The position numbers were made by a program, and so were the translations under genes. Under the pieces are notes generated by a model. It made no database searches and was not told the DNA's origin. It was given only the letters and a program-made list of their open reading frames with translations. Below, in pieces: positions 31,347-39,882 of a DNA stretch of 40,136 nucleotides; the first letter of the stretch is position 1; the number at the start of each line of letters is the position of its first letter. The stretch spans positions 1 to 40,136 of the forward strand of contig JAJZPC010000019.1 in NCBI GenBank assembly GCA_021811385.1. Direction: 5' to 3'. This DNA is from Deltaproteobacteria bacterium. Lineage in GTDB: Bacteria > Desulfobacterota > Desulfobulbia > Desulfobulbales > Desulfurivibrionaceae.

Positions 31347-32678
31347 ATGCCCATGGCACAATTAAAAATTATCGCCCTTGCATTGATTGCCCTGCAACTC
31401 TCACTCGCGCCGATTGCAGGTGCGGCGGAGATGCCCGCTTCCTACTCCCTGGGCGGGCAGTACCTGGAACAGGGTAAATTCGAGGAAGCCTACACGGAGC
31501 TGCACAAGGCGTTTCTCCAGGAACCGGGACACCCGGACCTTAACTTCCAGCTTGGCCGGGCCGCCTTTGAAACCGGCCGATTCGAGGAAGCGATCATGGC
31601 CTACGAACGGGTTCTCCTCGCCGACCCCGAGGCCCAGCGGGTTAAACTGGAACTGGCCCGCGCCTATATGCAGATGGGTTCCCGCGAGGTAGCCAAGCAG
31701 TATTTCAAGGAGGTTCTCGCCACCAACCCGCCGGAACAGGTGTGGAAAAACATCGAAAAATTCCTTGCCTCCATCGAGGAATCGGAACAGAAACATTTTA
31801 TAAACGGCACCTTCACCCTTGGCCACGCCTGGGATGACAACGCCCGTTCCGCCCCGGTCAGCGACCGGATCTCCGCCGGGCTTTTCGAGTTTCAGCTCAC
31901 CGGACAGAGCGCCAGCCCCCAGAGCGACCAGATCAATAACACCACCCTGGTTCTCAACCACATCTACAAAAACGAAGAATACCCCTTCATGTGGAAAACC
32001 GCGGCGACCTCCTATAATTCCCTGTACCAGAGCCTGTATGACCTCGACATAAACTATCTGGGCTTGACCTCAGGCCCTGTTTTCCAGCAAGACACCTTCA
32101 TCTGGGATGTGCAGGCGCTCGTCTCGCACATTGACGTCGAACATGACCGCTACCAGGGCGCCTTTGGGGCCGCTTCGTCCCTGACCTACTTTTTCTCGAA
32201 AAATATCATGGGCACCATTGGCATCAAGGCCGAGGAAAAAAATAACTATGACGACCCTGACAAGGATGCGCTCAACCTCATGCTTTCCGCAGGTCCGGTT
32301 CTGCTGATCGATCAGAACCGGCTGAGCCTCCTGTTCAGCAAGGAGAATGAAAACGCGGATAACGCGGTCAACAGTTACAACCGTTTTGGCTGGAAGCTCC
32401 GTTACGACCGCTCCCTGCCCTACGATTTTGCCGCTTTTGCCAGCCTTGGCTACACCGTGACCGACTATGATGCCCAACACCCGTTCTTTTCTGTCTACCG
32501 CAGTGACGATATACAGGAACTGACTGCAGGGGTCTCCCGTCTGCTCTGGCAAGATACGGCCAAAAACCAGGCGCTCATCATGCAGCTGGCCCACACCTAC
32601 ACCAATTCGGAATCCAATATCGATCTGTACACATACAGAAAGAATGTAACCGAACTCAACCTGACCGTGAGTTTCTAG
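31347..32678 (+). CDS. Slam-like TPR plus outer-membrane beta-barrel protein
   Basis: Protein of 443 residues. Signal peptide: IIALALIALQLSLAPIAGAA (cleavage about 27). Residues about 30-140 hold three or four TPR units (SLGGQYLEQGKFEEAYTELHKAF; LGRAAFETGRFEEAIMAYERVLLADP; LARAYMQMGSREVAKQYFKEVL, cited as separate units), then the junction PPEQVWKNIEKFLASIEE. Residues about 150-443 alternate in beta strands (HFINGTFTLGHAWDDNARSAP, LYDLDINYLGLTSG) and end in VSF with a terminal aromatic. A TPR domain plus a beta-barrel in this order is the plan of Slam (DUF560) exporters, which move lipoproteins or soluble proteins such as TbpB and hemophilin to the surface. The length is close to that of Slam. 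Two cargo-like genes follow directly. Other TPR-barrel outer-membrane proteins are the alternative. Start could be ATG 31347 or 31353. Confidence 0.65.
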   Translation: MPMAQLKIIALALIALQLSLAPIAGAAEMPASYSLGGQYLEQGKFEEAYTELHKAFLQEPGHPDLNFQLGRAAFETGRFEEAIMAYERVLLADPEAQRVKLELARAYMQMGSREVAKQYFKEVLATNPPEQVWKNIEKFLASIEESEQKHFINGTFTLGHAWDDNARSAPVSDRISAGLFEFQLTGQSASPQSDQINNTTLVLNHIYKNEEYPFMWKTAATSYNSLYQSLYDLDINYLGLTSGPVFQQDTFIWDVQALVSHIDVEHDRYQGAFGAASSLTYFFSKNIMGTIGIKAEEKNNYDDPDKDALNLMLSAGPVLLIDQNRLSLLFSKENENADNAVNSYNRFGWKLRYDRSLPYDFAAFASLGYTVTDYDAQHPFFSVYRSDDIQELTAGVSRLLWQDTAKNQALIMQLAHTYTNSESNIDLYTYRKNVTELNLTVSF

Positions 32679-32746
32679 GAGCTGTAACTAAATAGCCATT
32701 ATAGTGCACTTGTTTTTGGACAACGGCTTAAGCTGCGAGGACCGTC

Positions 32747-34795
32747 ATGAAAAAAAACACCTCCTTTACGACCATCGCTCTGCTCCTTCTGCTCTGCCTG
32801 GCTGCGCCCCTCTCATCCGCCTACGCCGAAATCCAGGGCGTGGCCACGGTTGTCGCCCTCCGTGGCACCGTGGTCGCACAGGGCAAGGATGGCGCAGCTC
32901 GTAATCTGAGCCTCAAGAGCCAGATTTTCCAGGAAGATGTGCTCAAAACCGACAAAACCGGCCAGCTGCAAATCATGTTCACCGACAGCAGCATCATCAG
33001 CATGGGCCGCGGCAGTGAGATGAAGATCGCCGAATACCGCTGGCAGCCGGAACAAAAAGACGGCGCTCTCAAAACCCAGGCCAAGGAAGGCACCTTCCGG
33101 GTGATGGGCGGGGCACTGGCCAAGGACGCGCCCCAGAATTTCAAAACGGAAACCCCCACGGCCACCATCGGCATCCGCGGCTCCATGTACACCTTCAAGA
33201 CGACCAAGGACTCGCTCTCTGTCGTCTTTCAAGGGGGTAAGGGCATAGAGGTCTTCAACGAAATGGGCAAGGTAACCATCACCGCCCCAGGCTTCGGCAC
33301 CCGTGTTGTGCTGAACGCCCCGCCCGCAAAACCCTCCAAATTCACGGAACAGGACATCAAAAATCTCAACAGCCAGCTCAATGGCGGTAGCGGGAATGGC
33401 AACGGAACCACGGACAACGGCCCCACGCCTCCTCCCAACCCCCTTCCTCCCCAGCCGCCGCCACCGCCGCCTATTCCTGATCCCGAGCCCATTGGGTATG
33501 AATTTACTCTGCCCCCGCCTCCGCCATCCGACGGCATCTTTGCCTTCGAGGGATCTTTGGGCGGCATTTACACCGAGTCGGGAGTCACAGAATCATTCAC
33601 CAATGCCCTGTTCATGGGGGTGAACTGGCATAACCGCAGATTCCTTGGCGTGGCCGAGGATCCCACCGTTGACGGTGGTAACCCGATCTTCTTTTTCGGC
33701 TCCATGAACGGCTCCACGGTTTCTGATCTCACAATCTTTGGCATGGACAGTAGCTGGCCGAATTATTTTGAATTCATCCAGGGAAGTGGCGCTGGCATTT
33801 TTGCGGGCACAGCCTATGACTTTTTCGCTTTTGGCGCGAATGGACAAACCTACGACATAAAAACAGCGGCCCCCGTTGGCAGTTGGAACATCGCCGGCGG
33901 AGTCCAGCAGCTGTCTGGCGCCATGACCCCCGTTGCCCCAACCGGTACGGAAACCTGGCATGGATTCGTGGTGGGGCTCAGTGCGGATATGAACCCCGTT
34001 AATCCAACAGTCCCGGCCCTGTTCCAAAGCGGCACCCCGGACCAATGGAACAATTTCAACATGACGGTGAACAAGGATGCAGGCACCATCAGCGGCATCA
34101 TGAATCCGGGCAATGAACTCAATGATTCTTCGTACGACAGCATTTCCGGCTTGCAGGTGGGCGGAGATGTGACCAACTCGGTCTATCTCCGCGACGACGT
34201 CATGGCTGCAATCATTGATCCTTCCGGCTTGAAGCCCTATGGCAATTTCATGGTGGTAACCGGCCCGGAGGATCAATTCTCCAGCTATGTCACCTGGGGC
34301 TACTGGCAGATTGCTTACACTGATACCGGAACCTCCACCGAACGTATCATGGCTGCTCCTTTTTCTCTGTGGATTGCGGGCAAGCCCTCCACCAATTCGG
34401 TCATCAAGAGCGGATTCACAGGCACCTACAGCGGAGGTGCAGTGGGCACAAAAGTCGATGCCAATGGCGCCATGTATCTCAAAGGCACCAGCACGCTTAC
34501 TGCTGACTTTAATGCTCTCTACCCAATCACTTCCGGCAACATCACTTTCCCCTCAATCTCCTCCGGCGGTGTTACTACTTTCCCTGGCGTAACCCTGACT
34601 GTCGATAATACAATCAGCAGCATGACCGCCAATGCCACCTCAAATTCTTTTACCGCAGCCATTGCTGGCGGCGGCACCAGTGGCTCAATCAAAGGAGCAT
34701 TTTTTGGCCCTGCCGCCAATGCCGTGGGCGGCAACTTCTATTCCTCTGGCGGAGGGGTCCAATACATTGGCATTTTTGGGGGAAACAAACAATAA
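32747..34795 (+). CDS. FecR-domain surface protein with TbpB-like C-terminal barrel, copy 1
   Basis: Exported protein of 682 residues. Signal peptide ends AYA at residue 27 and lacks a lipobox, so it is not lipidated. A FecR domain spans about 30-155 (LRGTVVAQGKDG, TPTATIGIRGSMYTF). Residues about 215-262 are a Gly/Asn- then Pro-rich linker. The C-terminal domain (about 262-682) ends in a segment (about 555-682) with TGTYSGGAVGTKVD, GAFFGPAANAVGGNF and the final GIFGGNK. These match the pattern of TbpB-type 8-strand barrels (GxFYGPNAEEVGGxF ... VFGAK), the part of Slam cargo that carries the export signal. GCGAGGA precedes the ATG. It lies 68 bp after the exporter gene. The alternative is an unrelated beta-rich adhesin. 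A terminator follows. Confidence 0.75.
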   Translation: MKKNTSFTTIALLLLLCLAAPLSSAYAEIQGVATVVALRGTVVAQGKDGAARNLSLKSQIFQEDVLKTDKTGQLQIMFTDSSIISMGRGSEMKIAEYRWQPEQKDGALKTQAKEGTFRVMGGALAKDAPQNFKTETPTATIGIRGSMYTFKTTKDSLSVVFQGGKGIEVFNEMGKVTITAPGFGTRVVLNAPPAKPSKFTEQDIKNLNSQLNGGSGNGNGTTDNGPTPPPNPLPPQPPPPPPIPDPEPIGYEFTLPPPPPSDGIFAFEGSLGGIYTESGVTESFTNALFMGVNWHNRRFLGVAEDPTVDGGNPIFFFGSMNGSTVSDLTIFGMDSSWPNYFEFIQGSGAGIFAGTAYDFFAFGANGQTYDIKTAAPVGSWNIAGGVQQLSGAMTPVAPTGTETWHGFVVGLSADMNPVNPTVPALFQSGTPDQWNNFNMTVNKDAGTISGIMNPGNELNDSSYDSISGLQVGGDVTNSVYLRDDVMAAIIDPSGLKPYGNFMVVTGPEDQFSSYVTWGYWQIAYTDTGTSTERIMAAPFSLWIAGKPSTNSVIKSGFTGTYSGGAVGTKVDANGAMYLKGTSTLTADFNALYPITSGNITFPSISSGGVTTFPGVTLTVDNTISSMTANATSNSFTAAIAGGGTSGSIKGAFFGPAANAVGGNFYSSGGGVQYIGIFGGNKQ

Positions 34796-34834
34796 CCAGG
34801 GATACTACTATCCCTTCATAGTTCTTGACTTATC

Positions 34835-34874
34835 AAAGACGGCTGCCTCTTTTCCATGGCAGCCGTCTTTTTTT
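34835..34874 (+). terminator. Rho-independent terminator after FecR copy 1
   Basis: Thirteen-base arms AAAGACGGCTGCC and GGCAGCCGTCTTT close over a 10-base loop and continue into T residues. It separates the first FecR gene from the gap, so the second copy needs its own promoter. Confidence 0.92.
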
Positions 34875-35180
34875 CCTATTCGAACGAAAGAAACAGAATT
34901 CCCCCCCTTCCCAGGTGCCGTCCGTATTTTCCGAGACAAAAACCGCTGCACGTCAGGGTCAATTGATTTGTTCCTTATCCTCGATAAAAAAGTTATGCTG
35001 CCCGCTGCTCTTATCCAGTATAATTATGACGATACGATAGCTAGTTTGCCTTATTGCAGGCCGTATCTGGGCCAACCATGGCAGAGTCATCCACCACCGG
35101 CAAAGCCGGTGGCTTATTGGGTGAGCGCCTCAAAAGCGCCGACAAAACCGTGAGCCGCCCAAGGCGGCCGCATTCTTCGT

Positions 35181-35286
35181 CTCCCCCTTTAACAAAGGGG
35201 GACTGAGGGGGATTTAAAACACCGGAATCGTACAGTCCCGTCCGAAAAGCAAATCCCCCCTCACCCCCCTTTGTTAAAAGGGGGAT
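35181..35286. repeat. MITE-like element with C-rich inverted ends
   Basis: Left end (35181-35216) has CCCCCTTTAACAAAGGGGG then TGAGGGGGATTT. The right end (35251-35286) is its imperfect reverse complement, AAATCCCCCC...CCCCTTTGTTAAAAGGGGG. About 34 bases lie between. Each end can also fold alone. No coding capacity. It has the form of a miniature inverted-repeat element; similar C-run repeats are known in many genomes, but I cannot name it. Confidence 0.65.
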
Positions 35287-35386
35287 ATAAAAAGTACTCC
35301 GGTCATAGTGAAAGCCTGAAACACGACCGCCGAAAAGGTCAAACCTGTCTGAGTCCCCCGGCAAAGCCGGGGGTTTACCTTACGGA

Positions 35387-35442
35387 AATTACAATTTTTC
35401 GCTTTTGTATTGCTTGCCCTGCAACTCTCGCTAGCGCCGACT
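35387..35442 (+). pseudogene. Remnant of the 5' end of a second Slam-like exporter gene
   Basis: About 56 bp align by eye with 31360-31415, the start of the intact exporter gene, with a shared run TTGCCCTGCAACTCTC and near-identical flanks (roughly 80 percent or more identical). The translated trace LALQLSLAP equals part of the exporter signal peptide (IALQLSLAP). The homology stops before the TPR region, and the following sequence resembles the leader just upstream of the first FecR ATG (GAGGACCGTC versus GAGAATCGTC). This is the mark of a duplicated exporter-cargo unit that lost most of its exporter gene. Confidence 0.7.
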
Positions 35443-35511
35443 ATAATCGCTGGAGAGTGCCCCGCAACCGAACCCAATCACACCGTATGCTGTTACGCCA
35501 CGAGAATCGTC

Positions 35512-37611
35512 ATGCAAAAAAACACTTCCTTTACGACCATCGTTCTGCTCTGCCTGCTCTGCCTGGCCGCGTCATTTTCCGCCGCCAACGCCGAGCCACA
35601 ATCCGTGGCCACAGTTGTCGCTCTCCGAGGCACCGTTGTTGCCCAGAACAAGAGCGGCGCCAGTCGGAACTTGACTCTCAAGTGCCCGATTTTCCAAGAA
35701 GATGTGTTGAAAACCGGACCAAACGGCCAGCTGCAGATTATGTTCACCGATAGCACCATCATCAGCGTAGGCCGCGGCAGCGAGATGAAGATTGCCGAAT
35801 ACCGATGGCAGCCTGACCAGAAAGACGGCGCCCTCAAAACCCAGGTCAAGGAAGGCGCCTTCCGAGTCATGGGCGGAGCCATTGCCAAGGAGGCCCCACA
35901 AAACTTCAAAACTCAAACCCCCACCGCCACCATCGGTATCCGTGGCTCCATGTATACATTCTTGGCGACCAAGGACTCGCTTTCTGTTGTCTTCCAAGGG
36001 GGGAGGGGCATAGAGGTCTTTAACGAAATGGGCAAGGTGACTATCACCGCCCCAGGCTTCGGCACCCGTGTTGTGCTGAACGCCGCGCCCGCAAAACCGT
36101 CCAAATTCACGGAACAGGACATCAAAAACCTCAACAGCCAGCTCAATGGCAATGGCGGCAATGGCAAGCAACCGGCCGATGCCGAAAAGGGCGGCGAAAA
36201 ACAACAGCCTGCCGAGGGTGAACCAGAAGCAGGGACGGGACCGCAACCCGCCCCCGAACCAGCTCCGTCCCCGTTGCCGCCAGTTCCTATCCCACCAGTC
36301 CCTCTCCCACCAGTCCCGCCGGACCCCCGCGACCGAATTTGGGAATTCGTCGTCCCCCCTTCCCCTCCGAGCGATGGTATCTACGCTTTTAAAGGCGGCC
36401 TGGGCGGCACCTCGACGAAGACCGACGGCTCTACGGATACGTTTACAAACAGTCTCTACTTGGGAGTAAACTGGTATAACCACAAAATCTTCGGTGTTGC
36501 CGTTGATGATACAGTTGAGGGTGGCAAGCCAGCATTTTTCTATGGCTCGGTGAATGGTTCCACCGTTTCCAACATCAAAATCTTTGGTTCAGATGAGGGT
36601 GGATCTTACCCATACAACGACGACGCATTTATCAGCGGCAGCGGCTCCGGCCTCTTCTCAGGCAGTGCCTTTGATTTCTTCAGCTTCAACGCCACAGGGA
36701 ACTCCTATCTTACCAAGGGGACGCCCACACAAACCTTGCTGGATTCCTGGACTGTTTCCGGCGGCGGTCAACAGGTGGTTGGAGAAATGACACCGACTGC
36801 CCCCAAGGGGGTCTCGGAAATATGGAGTGGCTTTGTTGTGGCTGTGAGTGAAAACATGAACGACCGTCCCACCGGCCGCCACCTCATTTACAACACGAAC
36901 CCGAACAATTTTACCATGAACATCAACAAGGACGCTGGCACCATCCTCGGCACCCTGACCACCGACGTAAATGTCGGCGGGGGCTATAATATTTCCGGCA
37001 TGACCGTAGGTGGAGCCTCCGGCTCAGTATATCTCAACGACCAGCTCATGGCAGCGCTGTTGGGTAATGCCGCCGGCATCACAGTAAAAGAATATGGCAA
37101 CTATATGGTGGTCGATCCGAAAAACCAGCTCTCCACCTACTTTACCTGGGGCTACTGGGAGGTCGCTTACGAAGCATCTTCCCTCCAGCGCCAGATCCGC
37201 GTACCGGAGTCCATGTGGCTGGCGGGAAAACTCTCGACAAATTCGGTGATCAAGCCAGGGTTTGTCGGCACCTACAGCGGTAAGGCCTTCGGCACTATGA
37301 TCGATACGATCGATACCACCAAAATTTCCCAAGTGGATGGTTCCATGAATCTCACGGCCAACTTCTCCACTCCCAGCATCACCGGCAGCCTCAACCTTAT
37401 TACGGACGTCGCCAACAACACCACTACCACCCTTTCCATAAGTGGCGGAACCTTTTCGGCCGACGGCTCGACCAACCAATTCTCTGCCAGCCTCACTGGT
37501 GGCAGCATTAAAGGCGCCTTTTACGGAACCAATGCCGAGGCCGTGGGCGGTAACTTTTACAGCCTGACCGGCGGCAAACAGTACCTTGGTATCTTCGGCG
37601 GGAATCGCTAG
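35512..37611 (+). CDS. FecR-domain surface protein with TbpB-like C-terminal barrel, copy 2
   Basis: Protein of 699 residues, paralogue of the gene at 32747. The start is ATG at 35512 (MQKNTSFTTIVLL), matched to MKKNTSFTTIALL of copy 1; an in-frame start at 35410 would add 34 residues that are the exporter remnant and is rejected. Signal peptide ends NAE at about 29. The first 210 residues are roughly 85-90 percent identical to copy 1 by eye (FecR domain with TPTATIGIRGSMYTF). The linker is longer and Glu/Gln/Pro-rich. The C-domain is clearly more divergent, but keeps VGTYSGKAFGTM, GAFYGTNAEAVGGNF and the end GIFGGNR. It is 27 bp before the CHASE2 cyclase and probably co-transcribed. Confidence 0.77.
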   Translation: MQKNTSFTTIVLLCLLCLAASFSAANAEPQSVATVVALRGTVVAQNKSGASRNLTLKCPIFQEDVLKTGPNGQLQIMFTDSTIISVGRGSEMKIAEYRWQPDQKDGALKTQVKEGAFRVMGGAIAKEAPQNFKTQTPTATIGIRGSMYTFLATKDSLSVVFQGGRGIEVFNEMGKVTITAPGFGTRVVLNAAPAKPSKFTEQDIKNLNSQLNGNGGNGKQPADAEKGGEKQQPAEGEPEAGTGPQPAPEPAPSPLPPVPIPPVPLPPVPPDPRDRIWEFVVPPSPPSDGIYAFKGGLGGTSTKTDGSTDTFTNSLYLGVNWYNHKIFGVAVDDTVEGGKPAFFYGSVNGSTVSNIKIFGSDEGGSYPYNDDAFISGSGSGLFSGSAFDFFSFNATGNSYLTKGTPTQTLLDSWTVSGGGQQVVGEMTPTAPKGVSEIWSGFVVAVSENMNDRPTGRHLIYNTNPNNFTMNINKDAGTILGTLTTDVNVGGGYNISGMTVGGASGSVYLNDQLMAALLGNAAGITVKEYGNYMVVDPKNQLSTYFTWGYWEVAYEASSLQRQIRVPESMWLAGKLSTNSVIKPGFVGTYSGKAFGTMIDTIDTTKISQVDGSMNLTANFSTPSITGSLNLITDVANNTTTTLSISGGTFSADGSTNQFSASLTGGSIKGAFYGTNAEAVGGNFYSLTGGKQYLGIFGGNR

Positions 37612-37638
37612 CGCCACAGGAAACAACGCCACGAACCA

Positions 37639-39882
37639 ATGAACACACCACGACTCAAACCATTCTTCACCCTCTCGCCCTTCAAGGTCGGCTGCCTGGC
37701 TACCCTGGCAGCCGTCCTCCTTTTCGCTTCCTTTGGCCAGCAAAAACCAGCCCTTCTCGAAACCCTGGACAACCGGCTGACCGACACCATGTTCCGCTGG
37801 CGGGGCACGGTCAAGCCTTCCCAGCCCATCGTCATTGTCGATATCGACGAGAAAAGCCTGCGAACCGTCGGCCAATGGCCCTGGCCCCGCAACACCGTGG
37901 CCAGGATGATCCAAAACCTTGGCGCGGGCGGGGCAAAGGTGATCGGGCTTGATATCGTCTTTGCCGAAGCGGACCGCACCTCACCGAAAAACTTTATCGA
38001 CGAGTTGCAGCAGTTTCTCCCGGTACAGCTCCCGCCGGAAACAATGACGGAGCTGAAAGCGAAAGAAACCCTGGACCACGACCTCACCCTGGGCAAAGCC
38101 CTGGCTGCGACGCCCTCTGTTTTGGGGTATGTCTTCCAGACCCAAAACGACAACCTGAAAAATCAAACGGATATCCCCTTTCCCTCGGGCACCACCCGCC
38201 TTGCCCCGGCGGACATGCACTATGAGGAGATTTCCCTGCTTCGGGCCTACCGGGCCATTACCAACGTATTGGCCGTGGCCCAGGGCCAGAGCGAAGGTTT
38301 TTTCAACGTGTTCCCCGATGCCGCGGGCACGGTGCGCAAGGTGCCGCTTTTCATGATAATGGACGGGGTTCCCTATCCCTCCCTGGCCCTGGAGATGCTG
38401 CGCATCGGCTCCGAAACGCAGGAGATGACCATCCATATCTCCCGGCAGGGAAAAACCAACCTCCGGGACATCCTCGGGGTTGAGCTGGGGTCAACCTTTA
38501 TCCCCACCGATGAAAAAGGCCAGCTCAACGTCAATTTCCGGGGGCCGGGCCAGACCTACCCCTATCTTTCCGCAATGGACATCCTGGCCGGTAGAAATCT
38601 GGATCAGGTGCAAGGCAAGTATGTTCTCATCGGCACCTCTGCCGCAGGTCTTCTCGATCTCCGGGCCACGCCCTTTTCCAACATCTATCCAGGCGTCGAG
38701 GTCCACGCCAACATCATCGACAACGTTTTAAGCAAGGATCCATTCACCCATGACATCTACACCGAAATCGGCATCACCTATGCCCTGCTTCTGATCGGCG
38801 GCCTGGGATTAAGCGCGCTCCTCGCCTATGCCAGCCCCCTGGCCGGAGGACTCGGCGGCCTGCTGCTCGTACTGGCCACCCTGGCCGGCAACTATTCTTT
38901 CTTTTTCAGCCACAACCAGCTCCTTGGCCTTTCCTATCCGTTGCTGACCTTTTTTGCCATTTTTCTCGTGGTCACCCTGTTCAACTACTTTTTCGAAGGC
39001 CAGAAAAAACGCTTCATCAGCTCGGCGTTCGGGCACTACGTCTCTCCCCAGATCGTGCATCAGCTCATGGAGCACCCGGAAAAACTCTCCCTGCAAGGGG
39101 AACAGAAAACCCTCACCGTGCTCTTCAGCGACATCAAGGGCTTCACCACCATCTCCGAAAAAATGACCTCCGAAGAGCTCGGCAGGTTCATGAATGAATA
39201 TCTCACGGCCATGAGCCATATCGTTTTGGAATACAAGGGAACCGTTGACAAGTTCATCGGCGACGCGGTCATGGCTATCTGGGGTGCGCCTCTTGATGAT
39301 GCTGACCACGCCGCCAACTGTGTGCGGGCCGCGTTCAGGATGATGGCCAAACTCAAAATCCTCCAGGATGATTGGCAAAAACGCGATTTGCCGGAAGTAC
39401 ATATCCGCATCGGCATCAACACCGGGATCATGAGCGTGGGCAACTTTGGCAGCGACCAGCGCTTTGATTACACGGTCATGGGCGACAACGTCAATCTGGC
39501 CTCCCGGCTGGAAGGCGCCAACAAAGCCTACAACACCGGCATCATCATCTCGGAGTACACCAAAGGTGCGTTGGGAGAAGGATTCTACTGTCGGCTCCTT
39601 GACATGGTCCGGGTCAAGGGCAAGGAAATGCCGGTACGGATATACGAACCCCTCTGCGAAGGCGAGCCGGAGCCGGAACTGAAAAAAGAAACGGAAACCT
39701 TTGCCAAGGCCCTAAGCCATTATGCGAACCGGGAGTTTCAGGAGGCGGCGGAAATCATCCTCTCCCTCAACAAGGCAAAACCCATGATGCTTTACGACCT
39801 CTACCTGGAGCGGATCGCCCATTATCAAAAAAATCCTCCGCCCCCAGACTGGGACGGCTCTTTTACCTTTACCACTAAATAA
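37639..39882 (+). CDS. CHASE2-domain class III adenylate/guanylate cyclase
   Basis: Membrane cyclase of 747 residues. N-terminal helix (about 14-32), periplasmic CHASE2 sensor domain (about 35-350; IVDIDEKSLRTVGQWPWPR and AKVIGLDIVFAEADR are its usual marks), three helices (about 370-455), and a cytoplasmic class III cyclase domain (about 480-680). Metal-binding aspartates D498 (FSDIKGFTT) and D542 (KFIGDAVMAIWGAP) are present, with K538 and the Asp of FDYTVMGDNVNLASRLE as the likely purine-recognition pair, which favours ATP over GTP. The product should be cAMP. It follows the second FecR gene by 27 bp, so a periplasmic FecR-side signal is a natural hypothesis. The final 60 residues are helical. 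Confidence 0.93.
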   Translation: MNTPRLKPFFTLSPFKVGCLATLAAVLLFASFGQQKPALLETLDNRLTDTMFRWRGTVKPSQPIVIVDIDEKSLRTVGQWPWPRNTVARMIQNLGAGGAKVIGLDIVFAEADRTSPKNFIDELQQFLPVQLPPETMTELKAKETLDHDLTLGKALAATPSVLGYVFQTQNDNLKNQTDIPFPSGTTRLAPADMHYEEISLLRAYRAITNVLAVAQGQSEGFFNVFPDAAGTVRKVPLFMIMDGVPYPSLALEMLRIGSETQEMTIHISRQGKTNLRDILGVELGSTFIPTDEKGQLNVNFRGPGQTYPYLSAMDILAGRNLDQVQGKYVLIGTSAAGLLDLRATPFSNIYPGVEVHANIIDNVLSKDPFTHDIYTEIGITYALLLIGGLGLSALLAYASPLAGGLGGLLLVLATLAGNYSFFFSHNQLLGLSYPLLTFFAIFLVVTLFNYFFEGQKKRFISSAFGHYVSPQIVHQLMEHPEKLSLQGEQKTLTVLFSDIKGFTTISEKMTSEELGRFMNEYLTAMSHIVLEYKGTVDKFIGDAVMAIWGAPLDDADHAANCVRAAFRMMAKLKILQDDWQKRDLPEVHIRIGINTGIMSVGNFGSDQRFDYTVMGDNVNLASRLEGANKAYNTGIIISEYTKGALGEGFYCRLLDMVRVKGKEMPVRIYEPLCEGEPEPELKKETETFAKALSHYANREFQEAAEIILSLNKAKPMMLYDLYLERIAHYQKNPPPPDWDGSFTFTTK

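Follow-up and report, generated by a model that had tools for sequence, protein, structure and literature searches.

What is a gene of the Slam exporter type doing in an operon that ends in a CHASE2 cyclase? The question is raised by a locus at positions 31,347 to 39,882 of contig JAJZPC010000019.1 (assembly GCA_021811385.1; Desulfobacterota, Desulfurivibrionaceae), of which a stretch of 40,136 nucleotides, hereafter the window, was analyzed. Four open reading frames (ORFs), all on the + strand and near the contig end of this uncultured genome (75% complete), code for a Slam-like outer-membrane protein with tetratricopeptide repeats (TPRs), two FecR-headed proteins with TbpB-like C-terminal parts, and a CHASE2-class III cyclase, respectively. 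The original prediction, made from the sequence alone, had located the four ORFs correctly and had proposed a Slam-type pathway with a FecR-headed cargo, coupled to cyclic AMP (cAMP) signaling. The Slam- and TbpB-type matches and the recurring gene order agree with this proposal; however, it is the coupling of FecR with CHASE2, and not export, that probably represents the shared core of the related loci. We favor, with moderate confidence, the reading of the locus as a trans-envelope signaling operon, with an outer-membrane part of the Slam/type XI secretion system (T11SS) type, an exported TbpB-like tail, a periplasmic FecR head, and a CHASE2 cyclase relay.

Domain composition of the four genes

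The custom hidden Markov models (HMMs) used in this work (for the sorting of anchors, the distant loci, the fusion alignments, the count of multi-lobe proteins, the identities, the tree, and the cyclase motifs) were built from alignments including many of the loci counted; Pfam represents the independent check. The product of the first gene matches SlipAM (PF04575) with an E-value of 4e-8 (33.5 bits vs. a cut-off of 22) and TPR families with E-values down to 2e-19, the match with TPR_Slam (PF24575) remaining under its cut-off (28.5 vs. 35.2). In A4, the alignment of the Slam-like proteins, 45 of the 51 members match SlipAM and 37 match TPR_Slam (E ≤ 0.01). The AlphaFold2 (AF2) model built from these 51 sequences (predicted local distance difference test, pLDDT, 93; predicted TM-score, pTM, 0.72) has 14 predicted strands after the TPR helices. 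The profile and structure searches that the original prediction had suggested for this gene thus returned TPRs followed by 14 strands and a match to the DUF560 family, in agreement with its assignment to the Slam (DUF560) type. Among solved structures, the best Foldseek match of the model was BcsC (9b8a, E-value 6e-12), with PelBC further down, and CymA, porins and other barrels, and designed TPRs were also retrieved; the matches to BcsC, CymA, and porins do not separate an exporter from a porin, and the first place of BcsC says little because no Slam structure is present in the best 50 of the 1552 matches.

The two FecR-headed proteins share the same layout in the alignment. In protein 2, both FecR (31.6 bits vs. 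a cut-off of 24) and TbpB_B_D (39.2 bits vs. 26) were recognized by Pfam; in protein 1, FecR (PF04773) scored 29.6 bits against the same cut-off of 24, and TbpB_B_D remained below its own (23.3 vs. 26 bits), the barrel reaching 109 bits with a custom HMM that had been built with protein 1 among its sequences. The suggestion that both genes end in a TbpB-like barrel is thus upheld for protein 2, by cut-off and by fold, while protein 1 falls just short of the Pfam cut-off. All 35 members of the alignment A5, which was drawn from barrel-bearing loci, match TbpB_B_D (E ≤ 0.01). The AF2 model of protein 2 (35 sequences; pLDDT 83, pTM 0.61) has an 8-strand C-terminal barrel, and its Foldseek matches include TbpB (3ve2, E-value 2e-12), LbpB, fHbp, HphA, a haemophore, and NHBA, a Slam cargo; TbpB-type matches were thus obtained by both profile and structure. 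The same search also listed the C-terminal cell-surface-signaling domain of PupR (6ovk, E-value 1.7e-4) and the anti-sigma protein BDI_1681 (4m0n), which probably correspond to the FecR head, judging from aligned lengths of 140–147 columns. Judged by eye, the FecR proteins have a Sec-like N-terminus, and a lipobox-like string occurs in only 3 of 38 cargo proteins. In both proteins of the window the FecR domain directly follows the signal-like start; Pfam found no other N-terminal domain in either, and no cytoplasmic anti-sigma domain preceding a transmembrane helix was found by Pfam or, for protein 2, by AF2. A relative of 2052 residues (L030/L086) holds three middle-plus-barrel units.

The last gene, which closes the locus on the same strand as had been proposed, was confirmed by Pfam as a CHASE2 (E-value 5e-63) and class III cyclase (Guanylate_cyc, 5e-27) protein. 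Its hydrophobic segments fit a periplasmic CHASE2 domain, and the class III catalytic motifs (metal- and base-selecting residues) lie at residues 496, 537, and 609; these residues point to an adenylate cyclase rather than a guanylate cyclase. Six matches to cyclic-nucleotide-binding domains in the genome of the window could read cAMP.

Table 1. Coordinates and main traits of the features of the operon (positions in the window).
Feature	Position	Strand	Description
Slam-like (DUF560/SlipAM) outer-membrane protein	31347..32678	+	443 aa; signal-like start, TPR helices 31-146, 14-strand barrel 150-442 (Pfam, AF2)
FecR-headed protein 1	32747..34795	+	682 aa; signal-like start, FecR head ~31-205, Pro-rich linker, beta-rich middle ~253-545, TbpB-type barrel ~549-681
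Remnant of the 5' end of another Slam gene, immediately ahead of protein 2	35387..35440	+	54 nt; 83% identical to 31360-31413, E 2.7e-10
FecR-headed protein 2 (paralogue of protein 1)	35512..37611	+	699 aa from ATG (Pfam, AF2)
FecR head of protein 2	35602..36135	+	residues 31-208 (AF2)
Disordered proline-rich linker of protein 2	36136..36366	+	residues 209-285; pLDDT <50 over most; differs greatly in length between homologues
TbpB-like part of protein 2	36379..37605	+	strands 290-448, handle-like 457-572, C-terminal 8-strand barrel 585-698 (AF2, Foldseek)
CHASE2-class III cyclase	37639..39882	+	747 aa; hydrophobic segments 9-33 and ~376-454, catalytic part ~480-690

The intergenic spacings along the operon are 68, 716, and 27 bases, the last one separating protein 2 from the cyclase. 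The 716-base gap contains the Slam-like 5' remnant, which suggests that protein 2 was probably accompanied by a Slam-like gene of its own in the past; going by the sequence, the remnant is probably the trace of a duplicated Slam-cargo pair. A genus-mate (G007, L057) retains two tandem Slam-cargo pairs ahead of a single cyclase. The FecR heads of the two proteins of the window are 88% identical, their middle parts 48–49%, and their C-terminal barrels 44–45%. A longer frame for protein 2, starting with TTG at 35410, was rejected since the extra stretch overlaps the remnant. The same intergenic region harbors inverted repeats (34-base pieces, 35183–35373) and a terminator-like hairpin (35355–35373), perhaps an interspersed repeat element. 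The promoter and terminator scans of the window (9 vs. 5.0, standard deviation (sd) 2.4, and 20 vs. 13.0, sd 3.1, in shuffles, respectively) were not used. An autoregulation through cAMP and CRP was rejected as well: seven CRP-like sites were found in the whole window vs. a shuffle mean of 10.4, one of them (at 32247) within the Slam-like gene.

Recurrence of the gene order and of the FecR–CHASE2 pairing

The search for relatives covered 97 genomes (the window's own and 96 related ones), and FecR and CHASE2 were searched in 48 genomes. The Slam-like protein of the window was matched in 36 of the 97 (E ≤ 1e-12), and the A4 model in 35 of the 297 genomes of a phylum sample (E ≤ 1e-25), distant TPR-barrel proteins included. 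In the 48 genomes, the gene next downstream and on the same strand was a FecR gene for 31 of 34 TPR/Slam-like matches, two of the 31 being TPR-only proteins; the three exceptions are a match at a contig end (G006:C20), a fragment (G025:C7), and one (G002:C20) whose neighbor of 1039 residues has a TbpB-like barrel and no FecR. Such an adjacency, together with the existence of DUF560 and TbpB-type matches, is the opposite of the two outcomes that the original prediction had named as fatal to it.

A larger set was obtained by sorting 80 non-redundant TPR/Slam-like anchors of at least 90 bits, taken from loci L028–L134, L143–L168, and the window, into 67 full-length, 12 TPR-only, and one truncated protein. 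Fifty full-length Slam-like genes have an uncut FecR neighbor, which carries the TbpB barrel in 43 cases and lacks it in seven. In all 43 barrel-bearing pairs the FecR gene lies downstream, and in 39 of them a CHASE2 gene is present on the same strand within 9 kb; of the remaining four, two (L038 and L113) are cut short by a contig end and two (L042 and L107) are not. The order Slam-like, FecR-barrel, CHASE2 cyclase that was to be looked for in homologous loci therefore recurs. Two of the seven barrel-less FecR neighbors (L059, L122) lie over runs of N. For 17 further full-length genes, FecR is either cut by a contig end (seven cases) or was not detected (ten cases: L029, L032, and L105, which are at contig ends; L047, L055, L108, L114, L123, and L125; and L157, whose barrel-less FecR neighbor is under the threshold). 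As for the 12 TPR-only anchors, six have a FecR without a barrel, four have no FecR, and two have FecR and barrel (L048, at a contig end, and L132, split in two frames). A FecR-cyclase fusion of 1230 residues (L059/L076) was rejected: the run of N in the contig is an assembly gap.

In the tree of 83 Slam-like proteins, that of the window falls in a supported clade of 58 (99/96), in which 43 have FecR plus barrel, seven a cut FecR, five none, and three FecR only (one of them being an N-gap case). The operon is carried by the cultured Desulfurivibrio alkaliphilus AHT2 (G019, L031) and D. dismutans AMeS2 (L087), and two loci of Campylobacterota (L122 and L132) harbor Slam-like and TbpB-barrel parts. 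Carriage by viruses was considered and rejected, no relative having turned up in pattern scans of viral contigs.

Some neighboring cases deserve a mention of their own. The genome of the window has, on contig C4, a second Slam-like gene (L050:754-3126), 77% identical to the first, whose FecR partner of 343 residues ends in a repetitive Gly/Pro stretch without a barrel. In a genus-mate (L055:5638-10101), a FecR-less Slam relative has an upstream neighbor of 1039 residues with a TbpB-like barrel end; together they resemble a conventional Slam-cargo pair. Slam-like genes that fall in or close to the clade of the window also occur in records with distant names (L108 and L114, Lentisphaerae; L100, Planctomycetota; L125, a Klebsiella metagenome-assembled genome), which may be transfers or mis-binned contigs. 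Lastly, a window-type operon has beside it, on the opposite strand (L102:12915-18144), a very divergent set composed of a cyclase with a weak CHASE2 match, a TPR-barrel protein, and an Asn/Ser-rich FecR-like protein.

The pairing of FecR and CHASE2 extends beyond the Slam-like genes. In the 48 genomes, 51 of 74 FecR matches (73 of the 74 over the cut-off) lie within 8 kb of a CHASE2 match, while about one of the 74 would be expected by chance, according to our own estimate for some two CHASE2 genes per 3-Mb genome. Twenty-seven of these 51 have no Slam-like match within 3 kb, protein 2 of the window being one of them. Among 20 more distant loci, there are FecR proteins with a barrel (L177, L180) and barrel proteins without a FecR match (L178, L184).

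Moreover, the parts of the system are found joined in single chains. The genus-mate G011 encodes two proteins of 1163 and 1239 residues with FecR and TPRs according to Pfam, both of which, by eye, end like outer-membrane barrels. The FecR-TPR protein of L145 precedes a CHASE2 cyclase by nine bases on the same strand, and that of L144 and a cyclase on the opposite strand are some 2 kb apart; L148 combines FecR, TPR, and a TonB-receptor-like barrel, and L149 FecR and TPR. Probing plasmids with the L145 protein (tblastn) retrieved 135 records, 67 of them from Sinorhizobium. A pSymB protein of 1202 residues (L169) with FecR and TPRs can be aligned with L145 along almost its entire length (23%, E-value 1e-56) and is directly followed by a CHASE2 cyclase, which is one open frame in strain BL225C and two frames in L169; on a Methylocystis plasmid a similar FecR-TPR protein adjoins a CHASE2 cyclase. 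Judging from replicon, length, and neighbor, the pSymB protein is probably NsrA. According to the parts consulted of the papers on this system, NsrA is an outer-membrane beta-barrel receptor (barrel at 600–1200) that S. meliloti requires, along with CyaK, to respond to a plant protein signal with cAMP (PMC7529298); in this species it works upstream of CHASE2 cyclases (PMC7529298, PMC13001267), and CyaK is SMb20776 (PMC5498481).

Other arrangements of the same parts were also observed. In L157:1018-7722 and L158:2586-8140, a TPR outer-membrane protein (L157) or a barrel match (L158), a FecR protein (260–285 residues), a further protein (with Big_5 repeats in L157), and a CHASE2 cyclase stand in a row, that is, a trio with a separate partner in place of the fused tail. 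A short TPR-only protein (139–158 residues) precedes a barrel-less FecR in L124 (=L162), L126, L127, L130, L131 (=L049), and L163; in L130 the TPR part is the end of a 698-residue protein that presumably is of the TolC type, and in L124, L127, and L130 a giant protein of 1249–2474 residues follows FecR; this second pairing may represent the FecR/TPR module of a secreted adhesin. Another recurrent FecR-CHASE2 operon (L151, L155, L161, L184, as well as L150) consists of a short FecR (148–177 residues), a protein of about 200 residues ending in or near EPRNRRVEV, and a CHASE2 protein without a match to the custom cyclase model.

Signaling, reception, or export

The recurrence of the genes and the fusions support the idea that FecR, the TPR-barrel protein, and CHASE2 act together. 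Since FecR and CHASE2 occur together without Slam, FecR and TPR-barrel proteins without the TbpB barrel, and FecR joined to a TPR-barrel in one chain, the outer-membrane protein likely takes part in signaling rather than serving for export alone. At the core there is probably a relay across the envelope, running through an outer-membrane barrel, FecR, and a CHASE2 cyclase to cAMP. In the mechanism that we would envisage, the TPR-14-strand protein would be seated in the outer membrane, and the FecR protein, made with a Sec-like signal, would be recognized by it through the C-terminal TbpB-like part, which would end up at the outer membrane or across it; the FecR head would be kept in the periplasm, near the TPRs, by the long disordered linker. 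A periplasmic head is suggested by the single-chain relatives because FecR must be there where it precedes TPRs and barrel in one chain. The head would touch the periplasmic CHASE2 domain of the inner-membrane cyclase, reporting on the surface part (whether bound to a ligand or already exported), and the cyclase would then make cAMP. More tentatively, we propose that the sensing is coupled to export, that is, that the Slam-type translocon would export only the C-terminal lobes while the tethered head stays periplasmic, so that one polypeptide would span the outer membrane and report the surface or export state to the cyclase.

The conservation of the modules is in line with such a division. 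The mean pairwise identity over 38 operons is 0.51 for the TPR part, 0.38 for the Slam barrel, 0.55 for FecR, 0.34 for the middle part, 0.37 for the TbpB barrel, 0.53 for CHASE2, and 0.61 for the cyclase; hence, conservation is high in the parts presumed to be periplasmic or cytoplasmic and lower in the outer-membrane and tail parts. In one relative (G003), the identity to the window is 0.81 for CHASE2 and 0.86 for the cyclase, 0.63 for FecR, and 0.46, 0.28, and 0.40 for the Slam barrel, the middle part, and the TbpB barrel, and its Slam groups in the tree with one from another family of the order; Slam and cargo therefore appear to have been swapped together. The partial correlations between module identities (0.44 for Slam barrel and FecR, 0.43 for FecR and CHASE2) are only a hint, as the pairs are not independent.

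Several points weigh against our reading. Five full-length Slam-like genes (L045, L046, L050, L106, and L129) have an ungapped FecR partner with no detected TbpB barrel, and L157 is a sixth such case, its FecR being just under the threshold (48 vs. 50 bits). Distant loci (L176, L179, L181, and L187–L190) harbor the TPR-barrel, FecR, and CHASE2 genes with no TbpB barrel; the outer-membrane protein thus has some function for which this barrel is not required. The partial correlation between Slam barrel and TbpB barrel is 0.00 (again a hint only, the pairs not being independent). The whole-chain TM-scores of the protein 2 model to TbpB are low (about 0.2); thus, the lobes match TbpB better than their arrangement does. 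In the 48 genomes, 48 of 97 CHASE2 matches are near neither FecR nor Slam, which implies other uses of this domain, and the scan of the whole window, allowing up to two mismatches, gave no CRP-like site before the operon. To our knowledge, the known Slam cargo is carried whole to the surface, in which case FecR would be outside and away from CHASE2. The inactivation of smc02177, a FecR gene near cyaD1 of S. meliloti, caused no significant change in the response of the reporter quoted in the part consulted of PMC5498481 to one plant signal. Finally, the export of the C-terminal part and its surface exposure, like the periplasmic head, the direction of the signal, and the ligand, are what we infer from these comparisons.

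Part of these points speak for the main rival, a receptor of the NsrA kind without export, in which the 14-strand barrel would be the surface receptor, the TPRs would hold the FecR protein, the TbpB-like tail would stay in the periplasm as a lid, ligand binder, or adaptor, and the FecR head would signal to CHASE2. The loci without the TbpB barrel, the full-length genes with barrel-less partners, and the null correlation of the two barrels would all be expected from it, as would the single-chain proteins near CHASE2 cyclases, for which NsrA is a precedent. We nevertheless regard it as rather unlikely, since a SlipAM-family protein with 14 predicted strands and a tail of the cargo-barrel family are both halves of a known export pair, the six unbroken TPR-only relatives with a FecR all have barrel-less FecR partners, and the middle part and barrel are the most variable modules, as a surface part would be.

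An ordinary Slam/T11SS export, in which the whole FecR-headed protein would go to the surface or medium with FecR as an effector domain, and the cyclase would only regulate or be co-regulated, appears improbable. In known T11SS cargo, a C-terminal barrel does bear N-terminal effectors that vary, and some Sec cargo is soluble, according to the sections considered of PMC12282271, in keeping with the rarity of lipobox-like strings; however, the FecR-CHASE2 pairing persists both without Slam and without the barrel, and no other part of the cargo is as well conserved as the FecR head, which a surface effector would leave unexplained. A glycan exporter like BcsC, PgaA, or PelB, with the FecR proteins as surface or matrix proteins of a biofilm locus, would fit the BcsC and PelBC folds and recalls the LysM-FecR gene beside a CHASE2 histidine kinase in a Burkholderia biofilm operon (PMC5192318, in the part consulted), but is very hard to sustain, given that the best Pfam barrel match is SlipAM and not a glycan-exporter model, that Pfam recognizes no glycan synthase among the four genes, and that the BcsC match carries little weight.

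Relationship with known systems and meaning of the operon

With the T11SS/Slam systems (Neisseria Slam-TbpB/fHbp, haemophilins, NilB-NilC) the locus shares a TPR plus 14-strand barrel protein next to a neighbor with a TbpB-type barrel, as well as a cargo fold matching TbpB, LbpB, fHbp, and HphA; PMC12282271, in the part consulted, lists TbpB, LbpB, fHbp, and haemophilins among the established cargo. It differs in the FecR head of its cargo, in a cargo mostly without a lipobox, in the CHASE2 cyclase within the operon, and in its occurrence, as far as found here, mainly in Desulfobacterota. The section on cargo architectures of that 2025 T11SS survey does not include a FecR head, and the words "FecR" and "cyclase" do not occur in its main text; likewise, "cyclase" and "CHASE2" are absent from PMC8406197, and "FecR" from the five Slam/T11SS papers listed, an unrelated siderophore paper using it three times. 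In the open-licence literature searched, no FecR-headed T11SS cargo was found, consistent with the original remark that FecR heads on TbpB-like barrels are not known as a described cargo type, nor was any paper joining four of the terms FecR, adenylate cyclase, Slam, beta-barrel, and tetratricopeptide.

The trio of outer-membrane protein, FecR, and CHASE2 cyclase is partly known from Campylobacterota, and its studied relative is probably NsrA-CyaK. The cluster of Campylobacterota (PMC9239204) contains a CHASE2 adenylate cyclase, a FecR-domain outer-membrane protein, and a TPR protein, for which a common pathway has been proposed; unlike the window, where Pfam recognizes none among the four genes, it has a phosphodiesterase, and the section describing it names neither Slam/T11SS nor a TbpB barrel. 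The NsrA-CyaK/CyaD relay of Sinorhizobium meliloti has FecR and TPR parts and an adjacent CHASE2 class III cyclase, the pSymB protein (if it is NsrA) having a large C-terminal region. That receptor is, however, one chain of 1202 residues with the barrel at 600–1200 and no TbpB-type tail, whereas in the window no single chain unites FecR, TPR, and outer-membrane barrel, the parts being split over two genes, with a 14-strand Slam-type barrel. The FecA-FecR-FecI and PupB-PupR cell-surface signaling systems share the FecR domain, the fold match to PupR, and an inward-signaling outer-membrane protein; in the window, however, the FecR proteins have no anti-sigma domain and the neighbor is a cyclase and not a sigma factor.

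The operon links type XI secretion to second-messenger signaling and adds a FecR-headed class with up to three TbpB-like lobes per chain. The factors recognized by CHASE2 domains are not known, according to the part consulted of PMC5192318, and this operon offers compact, conserved, and testable parts (outer-membrane barrel, FecR, and CHASE2 cyclase) for asking how surface events are conveyed to CHASE2 proteins. If the export-coupled sensing were true, it would represent a new way of signaling across the outer membrane, in which a secretion system is part of the receptor.

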